Position numbers and translations under genes: made by a program
Shown here: positions 4,970 to 28,213 of the stretch, in pieces
How positions within the stretch are numbered: the stretch's first letter is position 1
Layout of the letters: each line of letters starts with the position of its first letter
Virus record (IMG/VR): IMGVR_UViG_3300040811_001156
Span: 1-39,368 of that record
Reading direction: 5' to 3' (one strand)
Length of the DNA stretch: 39,368 nucleotides
From: a virus
Notes under the pieces: model-generated
The model's database searches: none
Told to the model about the DNA's origin: nothing
The model's input: only the letters and a program-made list of their open reading frames with translations

Positions 4970-5184
4970 TAGTCATTTATGGCGCAGAGTGGTGCACATA
5001 TTGTCTAGAAGCAAAAGAGTATTGTCGTGAAAAAGGTCTACATTATTCTTATGTCGATATTGAAAACATTGACCTAGACTTTATTGATGAAGAATTTGAA
5101 CCAGCAAAACCCATCCCCCAAATATTCGAAGAGGGCAGAAAGATCGGCGGGTTTGATGATCTGGTAAAACTATATGGATTATGA
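4966..5184 (+). CDS. Glutaredoxin (NrdC-like)
   Basis: 72 residues, a compact thioredoxin-fold protein. The active site is CTYC (Cys11 and Cys14), followed by a cis-Pro segment (KPIPQIF) and a GGFDDL glutathione-binding turn. Phage glutaredoxins such as T4 NrdC deliver electrons to ribonucleotide reductase; no reductase gene is present in this window, so the partner is either elsewhere in the phage or a host enzyme. It sits between gene 47 and the Mom-like gene with 4-base overlaps on both sides. Confidence 0.88.
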   Translation: MIVIYGAEWCTYCLEAKEYCREKGLHYSYVDIENIDLDFIDEEFEPAKPIPQIFEEGRKIGGFDDLVKLYGL

Positions 5185-5726
5185 AATCAGAATTCACTAT
5201 CCGTGAAATCTCACTCAATGACGCCCAGCAATTCATTGCAAAATTTCACTACCTCGCAGACATATACGGTAAGTTCCTTTTAGGAATCCGTCATAAGTTT
5301 TATGGGTTATATCGTGCTGATGAATTAGTCGGTGCTGTTCAATATACTGCTTATGACAACTGGGAGAGACAAGCGCTGGCAAACCACTTTGGTTTCATTG
5401 CAAATCAAAATTTAGGACACTGGGAGATTTGTAGGCTTGCCGTTGCACCAATAAAAGAGTATAATATAACGTCATGGTTTTTATCGAGAACCATGAAATT
5501 ATTATGCGAATCTGAAATAGTGGAAGGAATCATTACTGTTGCTGACGCCAGAATGCACAACGGTTGCATATATGCTGCTTGCAACTTTGATTATTATGGG
5601 TTGATGAAAGGGAGAGTGTCTGGTATGAAAGATTGCCACTTTCATGTTTTTCTGAAAACGTATAACGGCAACCAATGCGTTTGGCAGAAACAACCTTTTG
5701 AGAAGGATTATGAGATAACTTTATGA
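5181..5726 (+). CDS. Mom-like DNA modification protein (GNAT-fold)
   Basis: 181 residues. It resembles phage Mu Mom and its relatives, which have an acetyltransferase-type fold and convert adenine in DNA to a carbamoylmethyl derivative. Visible family features are FHY near residue 22, the strand pair GLYRADELVGAVQY, WEICRLAV (about 81-88), TSWFLSRTMKLL, and ADARMHNGCIYAACNFDYYG (about 121-140), in which the His, Tyr and Asn-Phe pattern recurs in Mom-like proteins. It lies immediately before gene 46 and the larger modification cluster. Substrate and product cannot be read from sequence; a different acyl transfer is possible. Confidence 0.68.
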   Translation: MKSEFTIREISLNDAQQFIAKFHYLADIYGKFLLGIRHKFYGLYRADELVGAVQYTAYDNWERQALANHFGFIANQNLGHWEICRLAVAPIKEYNITSWFLSRTMKLLCESEIVEGIITVADARMHNGCIYAACNFDYYGLMKGRVSGMKDCHFHVFLKTYNGNQCVWQKQPFEKDYEITL

Positions 5727-7441
5727 TAACATTTAAAAAGGTGAGATTCAAAAACTTCCTATCGACAGGAAATAATTTCACCGAAATTAATTTGAATGAG
5801 TACAAATCAACATTAATCGTAGGACAAAACGGTGCGGGTAAGTCGACTATGCTCGACGCGATATCATTTGGTCTATTTGGTAAACCGCATCGTAACATCA
5901 ACAAACCTCAGTTGGTGAATAGTATTAATCAGAAACAGGCAGTTGTTGAAGTTGAGTTTAGTGTGAACTCAAATCACTTCAAAGTTGTCCGTGGCGTCAA
6001 ACCAAACAAGTTTGAGATCTGGAAAGGCGACACGATGATCAATCAGTCGTCACATAGTAAAGAATATCAAAAGATCCTCGAACAAAACATCCTAAAACTG
6101 AACCACAAAACTTTTCACCAAGTAGTGGTGCTCGGTTCTTCATCTTTTATTCCTTTCATGCAACTTGCTTCTCACTCTCGTCGTGATGTGATCGAAGATT
6201 TACTGGATATTAATGTGTTCAGTAAAATGAATCAGATACTCAAAGAAAAATCTGCGACGTTAAAAGAGGATATACGTGAGAATGACTTTCAAATAGAAAT
6301 TAATTCCACCAAACTTGAGTCGCAGAAAAAGTACATCCGAGATATTTCTAAAATAAACGCAGATGTAAAGAAAGAAAAAGAAGATATTATTGAACGGTGG
6401 CAAAAAGAAAAGGACACCCATGTAAATGCTGTGGTGGATCTGAATGCTAAAGTTTTAGAAAACAGCAAAGGTCTTTCTGAAGGATTGACGGAAACAAAAA
6501 ATATTGTACTTGAATTACAATCTTCTGACACTGAAATAAAAACTAAAATAAAAGCGCTAGTAAAGGAGACAAAGTTTTATGAAAACAACGAGACTTGCCC
6601 AACCTGCGATCAGAACATCGACGAGGATCTCAAAAAAGGAAAGGTCAAGCAAGCGTCGATCACAGCAGCAGAGTTTCAATCACGTCTTGCTGAGATCGCA
6701 GAGAGTCAATCTAAAGCAACAACAGAACTTGCAGCATATGAAGCAAGACTAGCACAAAATAATGACTGGCAGAACGAAATAAAACAGCACAATGATTTTA
6801 TTAACAAGTGTGATGCTGAGATAAAACTTGCTGAAAACGATATAAACAATTTATCTAACGATAAGTCTGATCTGGCAAAAGCAAATGCTGATTTTGAAGA
6901 ATATAAAAATCTACTTGACAATTTGCGGGAACAGAAACTCAAGTTAAACGAACAGTTTCAATATAATCAGGTAGTTTTAGAACTGCTTAAAGATACTGGT
7001 ATCAAAACAAAGATCATTAAACAATATGTTCCTGTAATTAATAATTTTGTTAATCAGTATTTGCAGATCTTAGACTTTTTTGTTCACTTTGAACTTGATG
7101 AAACTTTTACAGAAACTATCAAATCAAGACATCGTGATGCATTTTCCTATGACTCGTTTAGCGAAGGTGAAAAGCAACGTATCGACTTATCATTGCTATT
7201 CACTTGGAGGCAGGTCGCTAAAATGAAGAATAGTGTTGCCACTAACTTGTTGATTTTAGACGAAACTTTTGACTCCTCACTAGATCAAGATGGCGTTGAG
7301 AATCTTATGAAGATACTATATACTCTCAGTGACGATACAAACGTTTTTGTCATTTCTCATAAGGGCGACATGCTCGAGGGTAAGTTTAACAACAAACTTG
7401 AGTTTGTCAAAGACAAGAATTTCTCGAAGATCAAAAAATGA
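5723..7441 (+). CDS. 46: gp46 recombination nuclease ATPase subunit (Rad50/SbcC family)
   Basis: 572 residues (T4 gp46 560). SMC-like ATPase partner of gp47. Walker A is GQNGAGKS (34-41). Long coiled coils flank a zinc hook CPTC near residue 290, the ABC signature SFSEGEKQRIDLSL lies near 477, and Walker B LLILDETFD near 510. Its start overlaps the Mom-like stop (ATGA). In T4, gene 46 is followed within a short distance by gene 45; here about 5 kb of modification genes separate them. Confidence 0.95.
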   Translation: MITFKKVRFKNFLSTGNNFTEINLNEYKSTLIVGQNGAGKSTMLDAISFGLFGKPHRNINKPQLVNSINQKQAVVEVEFSVNSNHFKVVRGVKPNKFEIWKGDTMINQSSHSKEYQKILEQNILKLNHKTFHQVVVLGSSSFIPFMQLASHSRRDVIEDLLDINVFSKMNQILKEKSATLKEDIRENDFQIEINSTKLESQKKYIRDISKINADVKKEKEDIIERWQKEKDTHVNAVVDLNAKVLENSKGLSEGLTETKNIVLELQSSDTEIKTKIKALVKETKFYENNETCPTCDQNIDEDLKKGKVKQASITAAEFQSRLAEIAESQSKATTELAAYEARLAQNNDWQNEIKQHNDFINKCDAEIKLAENDINNLSNDKSDLAKANADFEEYKNLLDNLREQKLKLNEQFQYNQVVLELLKDTGIKTKIIKQYVPVINNFVNQYLQILDFFVHFELDETFTETIKSRHRDAFSYDSFSEGEKQRIDLSLLFTWRQVAKMKNSVATNLLILDETFDSSLDQDGVENLMKILYTLSDDTNVFVISHKGDMLEGKFNNKLEFVKDKNFSKIKK

Positions 7442-7989
7442 AAGTAGAAGTCATGCGTGGTCTGTTTCCTGAACTTCAATGCAGATATATGGTTCAGAAA
7501 ATGGAACATGCAATTGCGACTAATCAGACAAAACGTGAGTTGCCAAATAACAAAAAGGGCATCAACGCATATTCAGTGCACGAGTTATTCCCAGAGGAAC
7601 AACTTGAAGTCCTGTATGATACAACTGAAATTGTCGGCAAAGTCCTGCTTCCAACATACAATTTTTCAAGAAAGTACGTTAAAGGGTCTATTCTCAGAAA
7701 GCACAAAGACCGTCCTGCCTGTGAGCATAGTCTGACAATAAACTTTGGTATTCATGAAAAACCTTGGACATTTTTTTGCGAAGTCGATGGAAAGACGATA
7801 GGCATTGACTTAAACCCAGGAGATGCGTTATACTATACGGGTCAAGATGTTGCTCATTGGAGAGAACCACTTGAAACTGATTACTGTTATCAATCTTTTT
7901 TTCACTATGTTGAAAAAGACGGTGAATGTAAAGATGAAGCATTTGAATCGTTGACGCGACAGGATAGAAAGGGCGTTTACAAAGGATAG
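7438..7989 (+). CDS. 2-oxoglutarate/Fe(II)-dependent oxygenase
   Basis: 183 residues. The C-terminal half has a double-stranded beta-helix pattern with the iron triad His89-x-Asp91 (RKHKD) and a distal His140 (VAHW), followed by Arg142, which may bind 2-oxoglutarate. NPGDALYYTGQDVAHWREP is typical of the last strands of phage 2OG oxygenases. It overlaps the end of gene 46 by 4 bases and opens the modification cluster. Such enzymes hydroxylate proteins, small molecules or nucleobases; a role in modifying DNA bases is inferred from position only. It is one of three 2OG oxygenases in the window. Confidence 0.75.
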   Translation: MKVEVMRGLFPELQCRYMVQKMEHAIATNQTKRELPNNKKGINAYSVHELFPEEQLEVLYDTTEIVGKVLLPTYNFSRKYVKGSILRKHKDRPACEHSLTINFGIHEKPWTFFCEVDGKTIGIDLNPGDALYYTGQDVAHWREPLETDYCYQSFFHYVEKDGECKDEAFESLTRQDRKGVYKG

Positions 7990-7992
7990 ATT

Positions 7993-8658
7993 ATGTGTGG
8001 TGTGATTGGCGTCAAAATAACTGACGTCAGTAATGTTGATGAACTTTTGATCAGGACATTATTTCAACAAACAATGATACGTGGCAAACACGCCACTGGT
8101 GTCACCTATGTTCGTGACGGTAAACTTCACACGATAAAGGAAGGAATTCCTGCTGACGAGTTTATCGAAAAGCATAACATATTTGATTGGGTTGATACTG
8201 ACAACTCAATTGCATTAATCGGTCATATCCGATATTCCACCTCAGATCTTCGATACAATCAACCATTTGCCAATGACGATTTGAGCATTGTTCACAATGG
8301 TGTTATCTCTCAGGAACCAGTCGAGACATGGCAGTTTAAAACTGAAACTGCTAACGATTCTGAAATGATATTGAGATCTTGGGAAAGTGGCATTCACCCA
8401 TTCAATTCATTTCCTATGTCTAGCATGGCAGTCTGCGCTTTGCGTAAAAGCAAGATGTTGATCGGCATGAGAAATCATGAACGACCGCTCTGGGTTTCAA
8501 AGATAGACAAGGGGATCGTATTCACTTCTACCAAAGATATCGCCTTGCGAAGTGGAATTGGCACTCCTCAAAAATGCGAAATGTTTACTGAATACATGTT
8601 TGATAAAACTTTGATAATGAGGCATCATGAAACACCTTCAGTTAACGACCTACAATAA
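7993..8658 (+). CDS. Class II glutamine amidotransferase domain protein
   Basis: 221 residues, an N-terminal-nucleophile glutamine amidotransferase domain without a synthetase partner domain. The catalytic Cys is residue 2 (MCGVIGV), exposed after Met removal. Other family features are RGKHATG, GHIRYST, the oxyanion motif IVHNGVIS, and an Asp preceding SEMILRSW. Such domains release ammonia from glutamine for a partner enzyme, as in GlmS or AsnB. Here only the glutaminase half is encoded, so ammonia would be passed to another protein. Its place among DNA modification genes suggests it feeds an amination or amidation of a base adduct (inference). RBS AAAGGA. Confidence 0.8.
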   Translation: MCGVIGVKITDVSNVDELLIRTLFQQTMIRGKHATGVTYVRDGKLHTIKEGIPADEFIEKHNIFDWVDTDNSIALIGHIRYSTSDLRYNQPFANDDLSIVHNGVISQEPVETWQFKTETANDSEMILRSWESGIHPFNSFPMSSMAVCALRKSKMLIGMRNHERPLWVSKIDKGIVFTSTKDIALRSGIGTPQKCEMFTEYMFDKTLIMRHHETPSVNDLQ

Positions 8659-9304
8659 AGATCAAGTCGAAAAACTCATCGAGAGACAACCAGAAGGAAA
8701 TAACACTAGGTTTCTCAAGTCTGCACACAACCTATGGTTTCGTTTTAAAAACTACGAGAAGCATCCTCCGTTCGTGCTCGTTGCTGATTCAGCACTAGAC
8801 GCAGGAGCAGATCCACTGGCACTAGTTTTTATTACTTTTAGTCAACGATCAAAGTATGCCAATCTATATGAGATCGTAACCCTTGAAGGCAAAGAAGGAA
8901 TGGGGTATGCTTCTAAAGTTTATTGGAGAGTTATGCAGAAGGCACATGAAAGGGGAATGCAGAGATTGAAGATGTCATGTACTCCCTCATCTGTAACTTG
9001 GCACAATCGCAATGGTACTATTTTCTGGGCAGTAGATCCGTCTGGATCCTTGCGTTGTGATGTTCCTATTTTTCCGAACCTACACGAGCAACTCACTTTT
9101 CGTGAGATGGCATTGAAAGATCATACCATTGCGTTACCACCAGAGAATGTAATTGAAAAACTAAAAAAAGAGGCACCAAATTCTCATGGGTTTGGTGTAA
9201 AGAAAATGCGACAAATTGAGGAGGCAATAAAAAGTGTTGGATCTCACTATATGCGTTGGGCACTCTACGAACCTACTTCTGCTTCCTTGGACGATTTCGT
9301 ATGA
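8627..9304 (+). CDS. GNAT-type acyltransferase with C-terminal clamp-binding-like tail
   Basis: 225 residues. A GNAT fold is suggested by YEIVTLEGKEGMGYASKVYW (about 81-100), where GKEGMGYA is a degenerate acyl-CoA pyrophosphate loop followed by the usual helix (VMQKAHERG), then RLKMSC and the NGTIFW turn. GNAT enzymes occur with amino acid:DNA transferases in known thymidine hypermodification loci. The last residues are SASLDDFV, the motif shared with other proteins here. The ATG overlaps the amidotransferase gene by 32 bases and is preceded by GAGG. The acyl acceptor is unknown; an amino group added to a DNA base is my inference. Confidence 0.65.
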   Translation: MKHLQLTTYNKDQVEKLIERQPEGNNTRFLKSAHNLWFRFKNYEKHPPFVLVADSALDAGADPLALVFITFSQRSKYANLYEIVTLEGKEGMGYASKVYWRVMQKAHERGMQRLKMSCTPSSVTWHNRNGTIFWAVDPSGSLRCDVPIFPNLHEQLTFREMALKDHTIALPPENVIEKLKKEAPNSHGFGVKKMRQIEEAIKSVGSHYMRWALYEPTSASLDDFV

Positions 9305-9522
9305 AAAAAATAATTACGACGATAAGCGGGAAGATATTCAACCGTTACAAATGGGAACCGACCGAAGAAGAACCAGTATATCCGATACAGGAATTTTACA
9401 CACCGAGGAGAGATGAACACGGACAATGGTGGTGGGGTTATCGCAAAGTGAGATTGATAAGATTACCTGAAGAAGAAAAGACTAAATATCTGGAGAAAAT
9501 GAATGCGACAAAACCACGTTGA
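9301..9522 (+). CDS. Small orphan protein in the modification cluster
   Basis: 73 residues, basic and aromatic, with an EHGQWWWGYRKVRL segment and a charged C-terminus. The ATG overlaps the stop of the GNAT gene (ATGA), which sets the start. The 3' end overlaps the amino acid:DNA transferase gene by 20 bases. I do not recognise the family. Its position, translationally coupled between two modification enzymes, makes a subunit or adaptor role plausible, but nothing in the sequence shows it. Confidence 0.6.
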   Translation: MKKIITTISGKIFNRYKWEPTEEEPVYPIQEFYTPRRDEHGQWWWGYRKVRLIRLPEEEKTKYLEKMNATKPR

Positions 9523-10480
9523 CACATTCATTGATTGGTTTGGTCGTAGTCTGGAAATTGAAGACTGCGATTCTGCTTTGTTTATGACCAATTATTTCTT
9601 CGATCGGTTTGAGTACAACTCCGAACAACGACTTTGGTTATCTTGGATCTATGGCACCACATATTATTGGCCCACTGCTTATGTCATTTGGAATGAGTTT
9701 CCTGATATGGAACTCGTCGGAGTGGAACGTCTTCGAGATTGGAATAATTCTAATTACTCTCGTCTTCGTTATCAAACTGATACTAAATGGAATAAAGGAC
9801 ACCTCGCGGATCAGTTCGTCTCCTACAAAGAATACGTTGGAGAGAGATCACAATGGTCTGCACTCACACAGGGATTTGTAGGTGACCCCGTTAAGGATTT
9901 CTATACGCTGTGGGAGACAGTAAATGCGTGGCACAAATTTGGTCGATACACTTCGTGGTTTTATATTCAAACGATCAAACAATGCTGTGACATTCCTGTT
10001 GATGTTGACAGTCTTTGGTTGCACGATTATAGCGGCTCTCGTTCGCATCGGAATGGACTATGTTATGCAGTGGGCAAACCTGATTGGATTGATCGCAAAT
10101 TAGATGAAGTCGAAATTGATTTTCTAGAAAATACTGCCAAAGAAATATTGGCAGAAACAAAACTCAGATATCCCCATGTTGCTGAAAAGGCAGATTTCTT
10201 TGCAATGGAAACCTGTCTCTGCAGTTTCAAAAAACTCTTCAGAACTCGAGAGGGTCGATATCTTGGTTACTATCTTGATCGACAAGCAGAGGAAATCAAA
10301 CGTGTTGAACAAGATGAGTGGGTTGGTATTGATTGGAAACCGATGTGGGATGCCAGAAACGAAACCCTACAGAAAAGATACTTGACAAATAAGATAGAAA
10401 AGAGTAAAATGTTTCTATTCTTAGAAACAGGCAAATTTGATCCAACTGAAAACAACTTGGGTCTTGAATCTTTCATGTGA
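9503..10480 (+). CDS. Amino acid:DNA transferase-like protein (thymine pyrophosphorylase clade)
   Basis: 325 residues. It matches my recollection of the family described computationally as alpha-glutamyl/putrescinyl thymine pyrophosphorylases. Members in phages such as ViI and M6 replace the phosphate of phosphorylated 5-hydroxymethyluracil in DNA with an amino acid. Signature stretches are FEYNSEQRLWLSWIYGTTYY (36-55), then PTAYVIWNEFPD, LRYQTDTKW, and RNGLCYAVGK (183-192). The C-terminus NNLGLESFM loosely resembles the LxDF tail of its neighbours. RBS GGAGA precedes the ATG. The kinase that would prepare its substrate is two genes downstream. The donated amino acid cannot be read from the sequence. 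Confidence 0.8.
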   Translation: MRQNHVDTFIDWFGRSLEIEDCDSALFMTNYFFDRFEYNSEQRLWLSWIYGTTYYWPTAYVIWNEFPDMELVGVERLRDWNNSNYSRLRYQTDTKWNKGHLADQFVSYKEYVGERSQWSALTQGFVGDPVKDFYTLWETVNAWHKFGRYTSWFYIQTIKQCCDIPVDVDSLWLHDYSGSRSHRNGLCYAVGKPDWIDRKLDEVEIDFLENTAKEILAETKLRYPHVAEKADFFAMETCLCSFKKLFRTREGRYLGYYLDRQAEEIKRVEQDEWVGIDWKPMWDARNETLQKRYLTNKIEKSKMFLFLETGKFDPTENNLGLESFM

Positions 10481-10487
10481 GGAATGA

Positions 10488-11885
10488 ATGGAAAGAGTTA
10501 GAATTGGAAAGTATGAATGGGACAAATACAAGGGTGATGAAGGGCAAGACGTCTACATTGCTAAGTTCCTCATTGAAGACGATGCTGTCCTCGGCACGTA
10601 TGTTGATGAAAACTCATATGATATTTTAGTTGAAGAGGACGCAGACTTTTACTTGTCATCTAATGACCTGATGGGCGAGACGCACGAGGAAGATCTGATC
10701 GCGTTTAAGTTTCGTAAAAATGTATTCACTGATGAAGAACAAAAGGGTGCTTATGAAGGTTTGTATGGTGCTGCTGTTGAGTCTAATAATCGTGGACTCG
10801 CTGCTGGACCGCGTGAAGAGACTCAGGGCAATCGTGACTGGGTGACTGGTTATCAACAAGATGTCTTGTCTTGGTATGAGCGAGGACAACCACCTAATGT
10901 TGATGGCACTGATCCCCTTCAAGAAATATTCGAACGTCATTTGTCAAACGAAGATGAAATCCGTGGTGGTGTTTGGTTGCGTACAAAGATCGAACCCGAG
11001 TTTGGCACCTACAAAGATTTCTTTCCTACACTTGAACGTCGACTCTCAGGTATGCCTATAGGTATGGCACAAGCAGAGGCACGAAGAGTTCGAACCACAA
11101 TGATTTCCGATACTTCATATGCTACTGCAATCTGGTCAGGTATCGCAGGATTTTATGGTCGATATCCTCGTATCCCCTACGGTCGACCAACAGCTTATAC
11201 CGATCATCATCGAGAAAAGTTTGAGAAGTGTTACCCCTTTGCTCGCAAACTTGAGCAGGAGTTTGCACGACTGCTCCCAGTGCGTCACGAACGTCAACTG
11301 AAATGTGCAGAGCAGATGGATAAGAAATTTCTTATCGGTGAGGATACAACCTTCACCACAATTACTGTTAATACAACGCAGGCAGATCGCAATGCACGTA
11401 TGGCATGTCATCGTGATGCTGGTTCGTTGAATCGTGGTTTTTCTAACCTGACTGTGATTACCGATCAAGGTAAGAGTTGGGAAGGTGGTTACTTGGTTGC
11501 CCCTGAAGTTCGTGCGGCGATTAACGTGCGTCCAGGTGATCTACTGCTCATTGATAACATGCGTGTGATTCATGGAAACACACCTATTACTGCGCCAAAT
11601 GGCGTAGACGAAAACTTCATGAGGATGTCTCTGGTTTTCTATTTCCGCGAAGATATGTTAAAACTTGGTTCGTGGGATTATGAACACCTGAGACGTGCTT
11701 ACGTCGACGAACGTCGTAAAAATGAAGAACACCCTCTTTGGAGACCATTCTGGAATGGTGTCAGTCCCGATATGTGGGAAGAAAAAGAGTGGTATGATTG
11801 GTTAAGTACACATGATGAAAGTCTGGTGCAAAAATATCATCCTGAAGCATATGATGTTCCTGCATCTTTGGAGGACTTCTTTTGA
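10488..11885 (+). CDS. TET/JBP-family 2OG-Fe(II) DNA base dioxygenase
   Basis: 465 residues. The core is TET/JBP-like: TTQADRNARMACHRDAG with the iron ligands His308 and Asp310, GFSNLTVIT, WEGGYLVAPE, RPGDLLLIDN, distal His362 in VIHGNTPI, and an Arg-rich last strand (MRMSLVFYFR, Arg379 or Arg387) for 2-oxoglutarate. TET enzymes oxidise 5-methylcytosine and JBP enzymes oxidise thymine in DNA; both kinds have phage members. About 280 residues precede the core. The protein ends in ASLEDFF. No cytosine C5-methylase is seen in the window, and the flanking transferase and kinase act on hydroxymethyluracil in known systems, so thymine is the likelier target. RBS GTGAGGA. Confidence 0.85.
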   Translation: MERVRIGKYEWDKYKGDEGQDVYIAKFLIEDDAVLGTYVDENSYDILVEEDADFYLSSNDLMGETHEEDLIAFKFRKNVFTDEEQKGAYEGLYGAAVESNNRGLAAGPREETQGNRDWVTGYQQDVLSWYERGQPPNVDGTDPLQEIFERHLSNEDEIRGGVWLRTKIEPEFGTYKDFFPTLERRLSGMPIGMAQAEARRVRTTMISDTSYATAIWSGIAGFYGRYPRIPYGRPTAYTDHHREKFEKCYPFARKLEQEFARLLPVRHERQLKCAEQMDKKFLIGEDTTFTTITVNTTQADRNARMACHRDAGSLNRGFSNLTVITDQGKSWEGGYLVAPEVRAAINVRPGDLLLIDNMRVIHGNTPITAPNGVDENFMRMSLVFYFREDMLKLGSWDYEHLRRAYVDERRKNEEHPLWRPFWNGVSPDMWEEKEWYDWLSTHDESLVQKYHPEAYDVPASLEDFF

Positions 11886-12448
11886 AAAAATTAATTGCAA
11901 TCATTGGCCCGCCAGGAACTGGAAAGACTACACTCGTTCGCAAACTGATGGAACGGTTCGAATGGGTGTATGATAAACCAATCGATCTTGTTGACTCATA
12001 TGTGTGTGGTAAGATAAGATTGATCGGACGATATGAAGAAGGCGAATTATTCGCTGGAACTGACAGGTTGAGTATGGCAGTACAACCTAAATTTCTCGAA
12101 TATATAAAAGACAACGATGACGAAGTTGTGATATTTGAGGGAGACAGACTCTCGTCTGTCACATTATTTGAAGAAGTTTCAAAACATAATTATGAATTGA
12201 AAATCTTCTCATTAAAAGTTTCAGATGAAACTCTGAAGAAACGATACGAACAACGAGGTTCTGATCAATCTGAGCAGTTTATCCGTGGTCGCAAGACCAA
12301 GGTTTCTAAAATTGAAGAACGATTCGGTGACAATATCCTCTTTGGATATGATGGTTGCGTTGATGAACTTCAAAATGAAACTGAAACTGAACTTGAAAAT
12401 AATGTCAACTTAATTCACAAAGAAATAACGCTTGACATTAATCATTGA
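11882..12448 (+). CDS. P-loop kinase, 5-hydroxymethyluracil-DNA kinase-like
   Basis: 188 residues. Walker A GPPGTGKT (9-16) opens the protein, GTDRLSMAVQP is at 59-69, and VVIFEGDRL at 83-90 is the acidic second motif. The GTDRLS and FEGDRL pair is what I associate with kinases that phosphorylate 5-hydroxymethyluracil in phage DNA, the step before amino acid transfer. The start is TTG (TTGA overlap with the dioxygenase stop), with a good RBS, GGAGG, upstream. The last 30 residues are acidic. A cytidine or nucleotide kinase role is a weaker alternative. The next gene, the sliding clamp, has its own promoter overlapping this 3' end. Confidence 0.78.
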   Translation: MKKLIAIIGPPGTGKTTLVRKLMERFEWVYDKPIDLVDSYVCGKIRLIGRYEEGELFAGTDRLSMAVQPKFLEYIKDNDDEVVIFEGDRLSSVTLFEEVSKHNYELKIFSLKVSDETLKKRYEQRGSDQSEQFIRGRKTKVSKIEERFGDNILFGYDGCVDELQNETETELENNVNLIHKEITLDINH

Positions 12449-27082: not shown

Positions 27083-27338
27083 GATCTTTGATTTTGGATT
27101 CACCGCAGTAGACGAGCAAGAACTTGAAGCAGTACAAACCACAGTAAAAGAACTTGATACTGCGAGTGCTACTGCTGAAGAGGCACGTGTACGACTTGAT
27201 AAGTTGTACAATGCCATTCAACCTTTGTTGAATAACCTGAAGGCAAATCCAGAGAAGGATTACATTTACTGGCCAGAACGACTGTCGAAAGTGGAGCAGT
27301 TTTCGGATCTACTCGATTCGATTTATGGTGGCAAGTGA
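27075..27338 (+). CDS. Coiled-coil conserved hypothetical protein
   Basis: 87 residues, starting MSEIFDFGFTAVDEQELEAV, a stretch that looks conserved in marine T4-like phages. Residues 20-60 are heptad-like (Leu, Ala, Val), then KDYIYWPERLSKVEQF. The start at 27075 has TTGGAG upstream and overlaps the previous stop. The 3' end overlaps the Dam methylase GTG (GTGA). Function unknown. Confidence 0.7.
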   Translation: MSEIFDFGFTAVDEQELEAVQTTVKELDTASATAEEARVRLDKLYNAIQPLLNNLKANPEKDYIYWPERLSKVEQFSDLLDSIYGGK

Positions 27339-28213
27339 AAGATCTAAAAACACCACTGCGATATCCTGGCGGTAAATCTCGTGCTGTTAAGTTTCTCTTC
27401 TCGCAAGAGAACATGCCAGCACGTGAGATAAAAGAGTATCGAGAATGTTTCCTCGGAGGTGGGAGTTGTGCCATCTATTTCTCGATGGCAAATCCCAGCA
27501 TTCCTGTTTGGGTCAACGACAAGTATTACAATCTCTTTTGTTTCTGGACCAGTCTACAAAAAGACGGAAAGAAACTTGCCGAAAAATTGCATCAAGTAAA
27601 AACCGAACTGGACTCAGCAGAGGATTCACTCCAAGCACATCTTGATTACTACCACGTAATGCGTGAAGGACTGAACACTGCTGAAGATCCATTTGAGATC
27701 GCATGGCAGTTCTACGTTATGAATCGTTGTTCGTTCTCTGGTCTCGGTGAGACAACTGGATCGTTTAGCAAAGACGCTTGTCGTGATCTGTTCACATATA
27801 ACCTGATCGCAAAGTTGCCAAAGTTTGCTCATGTGACACGCAATTGGAGAATAACCAACGAGGACTACTCTGCACTGCTGGAGGGGAGCGAGGACACATT
27901 TATTTTTGCTGACCCACCATATGACATTAAATCATTTATCTACGGTAATAACGGTGATATGCACGACTCGTTTTGCCATAAAAGATTTCACGATCAGATA
28001 GACGAGAGTGAAAGTATGGTAATGATCACCTATAACTCTAACGAAACTTTAAAGGAAGCATACACTGGGTGGAATCAGTTGGAGTGGGATCTCACTTACA
28101 CGATGCATTCCGGCGAGAAATATCTTGCCGACCAACACAACAGAAAAGAGTTACTATTGAGAAACTATGAATGCGCATCAAAGAACACATTAGAAGATTT
28201 CTTTGATATATAA
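27335..28213 (+). CDS. dam: Dam-type DNA adenine-N6 methyltransferase
   Basis: 292 residues, D12 class. It opens TPLRYPGGKSRAVKFL (SAM-binding element), then ECFLGGGS (37-44) and the catalytic DPPY in FADPPYD near 192, and ends with a strand carrying HNRKELLLRNY. T4 Dam methylates GATC; the same specificity is likely but not shown here. GATC is frequent by eye and not avoided in the window. The C-terminus is NTLEDFFDI, the same tail type as in gp43 and the TET/JBP enzyme. Start GTG. Confidence 0.9.
   Translation: MKDLKTPLRYPGGKSRAVKFLFSQENMPAREIKEYRECFLGGGSCAIYFSMANPSIPVWVNDKYYNLFCFWTSLQKDGKKLAEKLHQVKTELDSAEDSLQAHLDYYHVMREGLNTAEDPFEIAWQFYVMNRCSFSGLGETTGSFSKDACRDLFTYNLIAKLPKFAHVTRNWRITNEDYSALLEGSEDTFIFADPPYDIKSFIYGNNGDMHDSFCHKRFHDQIDESESMVMITYNSNETLKEAYTGWNQLEWDLTYTMHSGEKYLADQHNRKELLLRNYECASKNTLEDFFDI

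Follow-up and report, generated by a model that had tools for sequence, protein, structure and literature searches.

A TET/JBP dioxygenase beside predicted amino acid:DNA transfer genes in a T4-like phage, a probable post-replicative thymine hydroxylase

The window analysed here is the whole 39,368-base virus record IMGVR_UViG_3300040811_001156, in which no end repeats were found. Inspection of its open reading frames by eye indicated a T4-like gene content, including a UvsW-like helicase, gp46/47, a sliding clamp, gp44, gp43, a RecA-like protein and tail genes. On the plus strand, an ORF with an ATG start (10488..11885) encodes a protein of 465 residues, a predicted DNA thymine 5-hydroxylase that a sequence-only reading of this DNA had assigned to the TET/JBP dioxygenases. 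The assignment was confirmed: the protein matched PF12851 (Tet_JBP) with an E value of 2.3e-15 and 56.6 bits, against a curated cut-off of 34.9, and matched phrog_24024 over nearly its full length (6.6e-140). All 95 aligned phage TETs share the iron-binding residues H308, D310 and H362 and the 2-oxoglutarate-binding R379. In the AlphaFold2 model (44 sequences, mean pLDDT 81.3) the double-stranded beta-helix fold was closest to TET structures. The first 26 matches of a Foldseek search of the PDB were all TET-family enzymes (CcTet, NgTet1, CMD1, TET2), with CcTet as the best, and the VIA Z scores were 19.7 to human TET2 and 18.2 to NgTet1, versus about 14 to the best AlkB-type enzymes. A PDB sequence search with a profile of window-type TETs alone found no TET, and a wider TET profile did find it. 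Judging from its sequence and modelled fold, the ORF is a complete TET/JBP dioxygenase with an intact Fe/2-oxoglutarate site. Between N295 of the catalytic core and H308, the window TET and its closest relatives carry a five-residue insertion, TTQAD (residues 296-300), which is missing from the TETs of DLP6, Cr30 and other types.

The TET gene belongs to a row of genes on one strand, in the order class II glutamine amidotransferase (GATase), GNAT acetyltransferase, small ORF, amino acid:DNA transferase (ADDT), TET and P-loop kinase. The ADDT gene (9503..10480, plus strand) lies directly upstream of TET; its product is of the aGPT-PPlase clade 2 type (PF18724, 6.1e-22; phrog_3271) and is predicted to attach an amino acid to an activated base. 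On the other side, the kinase gene (11882..12448, plus strand) overlaps the TET stop and encodes a member of the P-loop nucleotide kinase 3 family (PF18751, 1.1e-10) that has an intact Walker A motif (GPPGTGKT), is homologous to gp4 of Mycobacterium phage Prince (2e-12) and is predicted to phosphorylate a 5-hydroxymethyl base in DNA. A kinase and an amino acid transferase thus flank the TET gene, as the sequence-only reading had stated. The GATase domain protein (7993..8658, plus strand; PF13522, 9.5e-9) is a cassette member whose nucleophile, Cys2, is kept in at least 95% of 46 homologues. The GNAT acetyltransferase (8627..9304, plus strand), whose predicted role is modification of the attached amino acid, matched PF00583 barely above the cut-off (3.6e-4). 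The small ORF between GNAT and ADDT (9256..9522, plus strand), taken from the ORF list, had no match beyond the window itself in the loci searched, and its status as a gene is weakly supported. A looser member of the neighbourhood is the small protein encoded at 7438..7989 (plus strand), which matched phrog_2954 (1.4e-40) and no Pfam family, looks by eye like a 2OG-Fe(II) oxygenase, and has a homologue near TET in 15 loci.

We then counted these genes around window-type TETs in 88 non-duplicate loci, which are related to one another, so that the counts are not independent samples. ADDT was found near TET in 50 of the 88. The kinase was present in 41 loci, always together with ADDT (41/41) and never without it, while GATase occurred in 44 (with ADDT in 38) and GNAT in 26 (with ADDT in 25). 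With G for GATase, N for GNAT, A for ADDT, T for TET, K for the kinase and L for a weakly amidoligase-like gene, the gene orders were GNATK (16 loci), TGLAK (8), TAK (7), ATK (4) and TGNAK (3), plus a few singletons. The co-occurrence of the cassette genes despite their shuffled order points to one pathway. The weakly amidoligase-like protein (L041:8009-8884 and relatives, 15 loci) is strongly conserved and occurs in many TET-GATase-ADDT-kinase clusters, mostly those without GNAT, where it may instead tailor the attached amino acid.

The phage TETs studied biochemically so far reportedly all act on 5-methylcytosine (5mC; Burke 2021, cited in PMC12730594). In the Methylophilales phage Melnitz-2, an HhaI-like C5-methylase gene immediately precedes the TET gene. 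The 5mC-acting enzymes (Burke 2021; Melnitz-2 type) have the same TET/JBP fold and catalytic residues as the window TET, and both the Melnitz-2 type and the window type lie in a modification cluster of a T4-like phage. A profile search with PF00145 found no C5-methylase in the window, as the sequence-only reading had noted. This absence says little by itself, because the window is a 39-kb record without end repeats, and we hence examined its relatives, which also served for the search of the rest of the genome that had been proposed as a check. The search among relatives covered 48 records (about 2.25 Mb, about 2.04 Mb of it of window type). PF00145 was found in none of the 46 records with a window-type TET (about 2.08 Mb), a set made up of the incomplete window genome, 42 IMG/VR contigs, most of them fragments, and the complete genomes of C48C1 (156 kb, TET 66.5% identical), DLP6 (168 kb, 50%) and Caulobacter phage Cr30 (156 kb, 39%). 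Contigs of 133, 120 and 99 kb with TET and ADDT are among these C5-methylase-free records; among the complete window-type genomes, only Cr30 has TET, ADDT and the kinase together. The clade of Melnitz-2-type TETs served as a positive control: each of its 22 records gave a PF00145 gene, with E values of about 1e-50 or better, and the search therefore detects such genes where they exist. A tree built from 95 TETs separated the 47 window-type rows from the 26 methylase-linked ones, on branches with support of 94 and 99; their junction involves long branches and is not securely placed. PF00145 was likewise absent from the third TET type, that of Pelagibacter phage HTVC112P (23 records), and from two actinophages.

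If a phage lacks a C5-methylase, the only 5-methylpyrimidine that it introduces into its own DNA is thymine. The main competing explanation is that the window TET is a 5mC dioxygenase served by a phage C5-methylase encoded outside the window, the kinase and ADDT then acting on hydroxymethylcytosine. This would agree with the reported activity of the phage TETs and with Melnitz-2, where a C5-methylase, TET and a PF18751-like kinase are clustered; yet the methylase gene is absent from all 46 records of the window-type clade, complete genomes included, and present in all 22 methylase-linked ones, and we regard this explanation as improbable. The TET could instead oxidize 5mC placed in phage DNA by C5-methylases of the host, which could act on it. 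However, the clade includes Caulobacter and Stenotrophomonas phages as well as phages with no assigned host, and a pathway common to them all would depend on identical host methylation in every case. ADDT, moreover, which accompanies TET in the cassette, is a member of a family that modifies thymine; such a source seems highly improbable. The methyl group could conceivably be supplied by an unfamiliar kind of methylase. That the substrate is N6-methyladenine (6mA) or a methylpyrimidine in RNA can hardly be credited: the window encodes a Dam-type (D12 class) N6-adenine methyltransferase (27335..28213, plus strand; PF02086, 4.4e-23; ADPPY motif), the only DNA methylase found in the window, as had been noted, and CcTet, which can act on 6mA, has both 6mA-bound and 5mC-bound crystal structures, but a Dam homologue was seen in only one other examined locus, whereas ADDT and the kinase recur, and a kinase plus an amino acid:DNA transferase would be superfluous for demethylating 6mA or oxidizing RNA. 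We rejected 6mA as the TET substrate, the Dam gene not being conserved with TET.

Two active-site positions were considered as discriminators between thymine and cytosine. NgTet1 D234, which faces the 4-position of the base, corresponds to TET2 N1387. At this position (S313 in the window TET), window-type enzymes have S in 37 cases and D in 10, all C5-methylase-linked enzymes have D and the actinophage enzymes have N; the residue is not diagnostic. The equivalent of TET2 T1372 was not decisive either: window-type and HTVC-type enzymes have T there, those of the methylase clade have S and those of actinophages have V. The restriction digests of DLP6 were considered as a sign of modified DNA, and the published text gives no usable result (PMC5349666).

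ADDT provides a further line of comparison. Homologues of the window ADDT were found in 376 phage records, mostly Ackermannviridae-type phages of enterobacteria and Vibrio, together with Mycobacterium phages, and the closest cultured homologues are the enzymes of ViI-type Ackermannviridae. The enzyme of Kuttervirus sal1 aligned with 28% identity over 292 positions (4e-34). DNA of the ViI group bears amino-acid-derived groups built on 5-hydroxymethyldeoxyuridine (5hmdU), and ViI, M6 and phi W-14 are thought to share a 5hmdU intermediate that is phosphorylated by a 5hmdU DNA kinase before groups are added (PMC6449724). The closest relatives of the phi W-14 hydroxymethyluracil synthase are in Ackermannviridae (PMC5977210). 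The ViI/M6/phi W-14 phages (Ackermannviridae and others) and the window share a P-loop kinase and a transferase of the ADDT/aGPT-PPlase type; of these components of the ViI/M6 pathway, the transferase is present in the window as ADDT (PF18724) and the DNA kinase is present at the family level, the sal1 kinase being annotated as kinase 2. Amino-acid-derived groups on hydroxymethyluracil are predicted for the window phage as well. The difference lies in the source of the hydroxymethyluracil: the ViI-type phages make 5hmdU before replication through a thymidylate synthase (TS)-family hydroxymethylase, and the window type has TET instead. No PF00303 TS-family gene was found in the window, whose genome is incomplete, and among the 46 window-type records, on which the proposed search for a dUMP hydroxymethylase was also run, only Cr30 had one (372 bits). 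Around the position corresponding to Asn177, the Cr30 gene retains the thyA motif in its canonical form, and it looks like an ordinary thyA. The TS-family gene of Kuttervirus sal1, a phage that also carries the kinase and aGPT-PPlase2, is divergent (54 bits).

The flanking genes had been read as favouring hydroxymethyluracil, and here the two genes differ. For ADDT the argument is stronger than had been stated, given its homology to the ViI-type enzymes. For the kinase it is weaker, because a related PF18751-like kinase sits with the C5-methylase and TET of Melnitz-2; the kinase does not tell thymine from cytosine, and we rejected it as proof of a thymine pathway. In Melnitz-2 (L211:4010-8090), the HhaI-like C5-methylase, TET, a 427-residue protein and the P-loop kinase are encoded in a row, which possibly represents a kinase-based hypermodification of hydroxymethylcytosine with the 427-residue protein as the transferase.

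Taken together, the genome context points to hydroxylation of thymine in DNA by the window TET. The earlier preference for thymine over 5mC gains support from the C5-methylase counts (0/46 vs 22/22) and from the ADDT homology, and the proposal that hydroxymethyluracil arises after replication and not through a dUMP hydroxymethylase gains it from the single, thyA-like TS-family gene in 46 records. On the simplest reading, hydroxymethyluracil comes from TET acting on thymine within DNA, and TET thereby stands in for a dUMP hydroxymethylase. We consider it probable, from gene content and homology, that the window TET is a JBP-like thymine hydroxylase that produces hydroxymethyluracil post-replicatively, followed by kinase activation and amino acid attachment. 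In this pathway, selected thymines incorporated by ordinary replication would be oxidized at the 5-methyl group to 5-hydroxymethyluracil by TET, using Fe(II), O2 and 2-oxoglutarate; the adjoining P-loop kinase would activate the new hydroxyl by phosphorylation, and ADDT would substitute a free amino acid for the phosphate or phosphates. Trimming or decoration of the attached amino acid by the acetyltransferase and the glutamine-dependent amidotransferase would follow, and the hypermodified thymine would shield the phage genome from host nucleases. We infer the thymine substrate, the order of the steps, the nature of the amino acid, the sequence context and the protective role.

A related module occurs in actinophages. 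Genes gp1-gp4 of Mycobacterium phage Prince encode ParB, TET, ADDT (1.4e-8) and a Ploopntkinase3 protein (1.4e-72), and neither a C5-methylase nor a TS-family gene was found in Prince. As in the window, TET, ADDT (phrog_3271) and Ploopntkinase3 are side by side without a C5-methylase, and the module is thus not unique to the phage group of the window. The Prince TET, however, is only about 20% identical to the window TET and lies on its own long branch, and the genome context is unlike that of the window, with ParB adjoining TET and no GATase or GNAT in the first four genes. Another known TET/JBP homologue is gp2 of phage Cooper. The deposited labels of the Prince proteins are 'thymidine hydroxylase' for TET and 'DNA glycosylase' for ADDT. 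Thymidine hydroxylation is thus already assigned to an actinophage TET by its depositors, although this GenBank label may itself be only a prediction; a search of the available literature returned no paper on a phage thymidine hydroxylase. Outside phages, the proposed window reaction resembles that of kinetoplastid JBP1/JBP2 in base J synthesis, in which thymine in DNA is converted to hydroxymethyluracil that another enzyme later decorates. The likeness is in the proposed reaction; the decoration is glucose for JBP1/JBP2, whereas an amino acid is predicted in the window phage and a sugar in its sister phages.

In these sister phages, whose loci are without ADDT and the kinase, a glycosyltransferase often adjoins TET, either PF20691 (TET-associated glycosyltransferase) or a group-1 enzyme. 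A glycosyltransferase was found in one of the 50 ADDT loci, that of Cr30, and in 18 of the 38 others (Fisher p 1.9e-7, ignoring the kinship of the loci). No C5-methylase was found in the glycosyltransferase-type sister phages, nor in the complete genomes of S-CBWM1 and P12024L, which are outside the clade. TET lies beside TAGT or a TAGT-type glycosyltransferase, with no C5-methylase, in loci L046, L063, L064, L098 (S-CBWM1) and L096 (P12024L), which makes these phages candidates for base-J-like glycosylated hydroxymethyluracil; for all the glycosyltransferase-type phages, sugar-bearing hydroxymethyluracil like base J is predicted. With somewhat better than even confidence, we propose that a large T4-like clade makes hydroxymethyluracil only post-replicatively, with a JBP-like thymine hydroxylase standing in for a dUMP hydroxymethylase, and then processes it along largely exclusive branches, one with the kinase and amino acid transferase and the other with a glycosyltransferase. 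Several phages, represented by L060:3586-4965 and relatives, also showed a weak match to GmrSD_N (type IV restriction) near TET and a group-1 glycosyltransferase.

In the published accounts examined, phage TETs work alongside C5-methylases to modify cytosine, and hydroxymethyluracil in phages arises before replication. A thymine hydroxylase that supplies an amino acid pathway in a phage would newly join TET oxidation with hydroxymethyluracil hypermodification; it is a variant of TET/JBP oxidation and of 5hmdU-based hypermodification, and no categorically new system. It would also be a phage counterpart of JBP, with a bearing on the origin of base J. If the two-branch proposal is true, the glycosyltransferase branch would represent base-J-like DNA in phages; phages would then be home to TET/JBP enzymes that oxidize thymine, and base J itself may have its roots there. 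The enzymes are candidates for site-selective thymine oxidation or hydroxymethyluracil labelling.

The window carries a further DNA-modification gene, missing from the sequence-only reading, that encodes a Mom-family protein (5181..5726, plus strand; PF25680, 4.2e-16; phrog_1384). It belongs to a separate adenine pathway outside the TET cassette, and no homologue was found near TET in the other loci examined. Its presence in the same phage as the TET cassette suggests that two unrelated base-modification routes may coexist. In GenBank, the product name given to TETs of DLP6, Cr30, S-CBWM1, HTVC112P and mycobacteriophages is 'SNF2 DNA repair protein' or else 'queuine tRNA-ribosyltransferase', and the kinase of Cr30 is entered as 'terminase small subunit'; these labels look like spreading mis-annotations.
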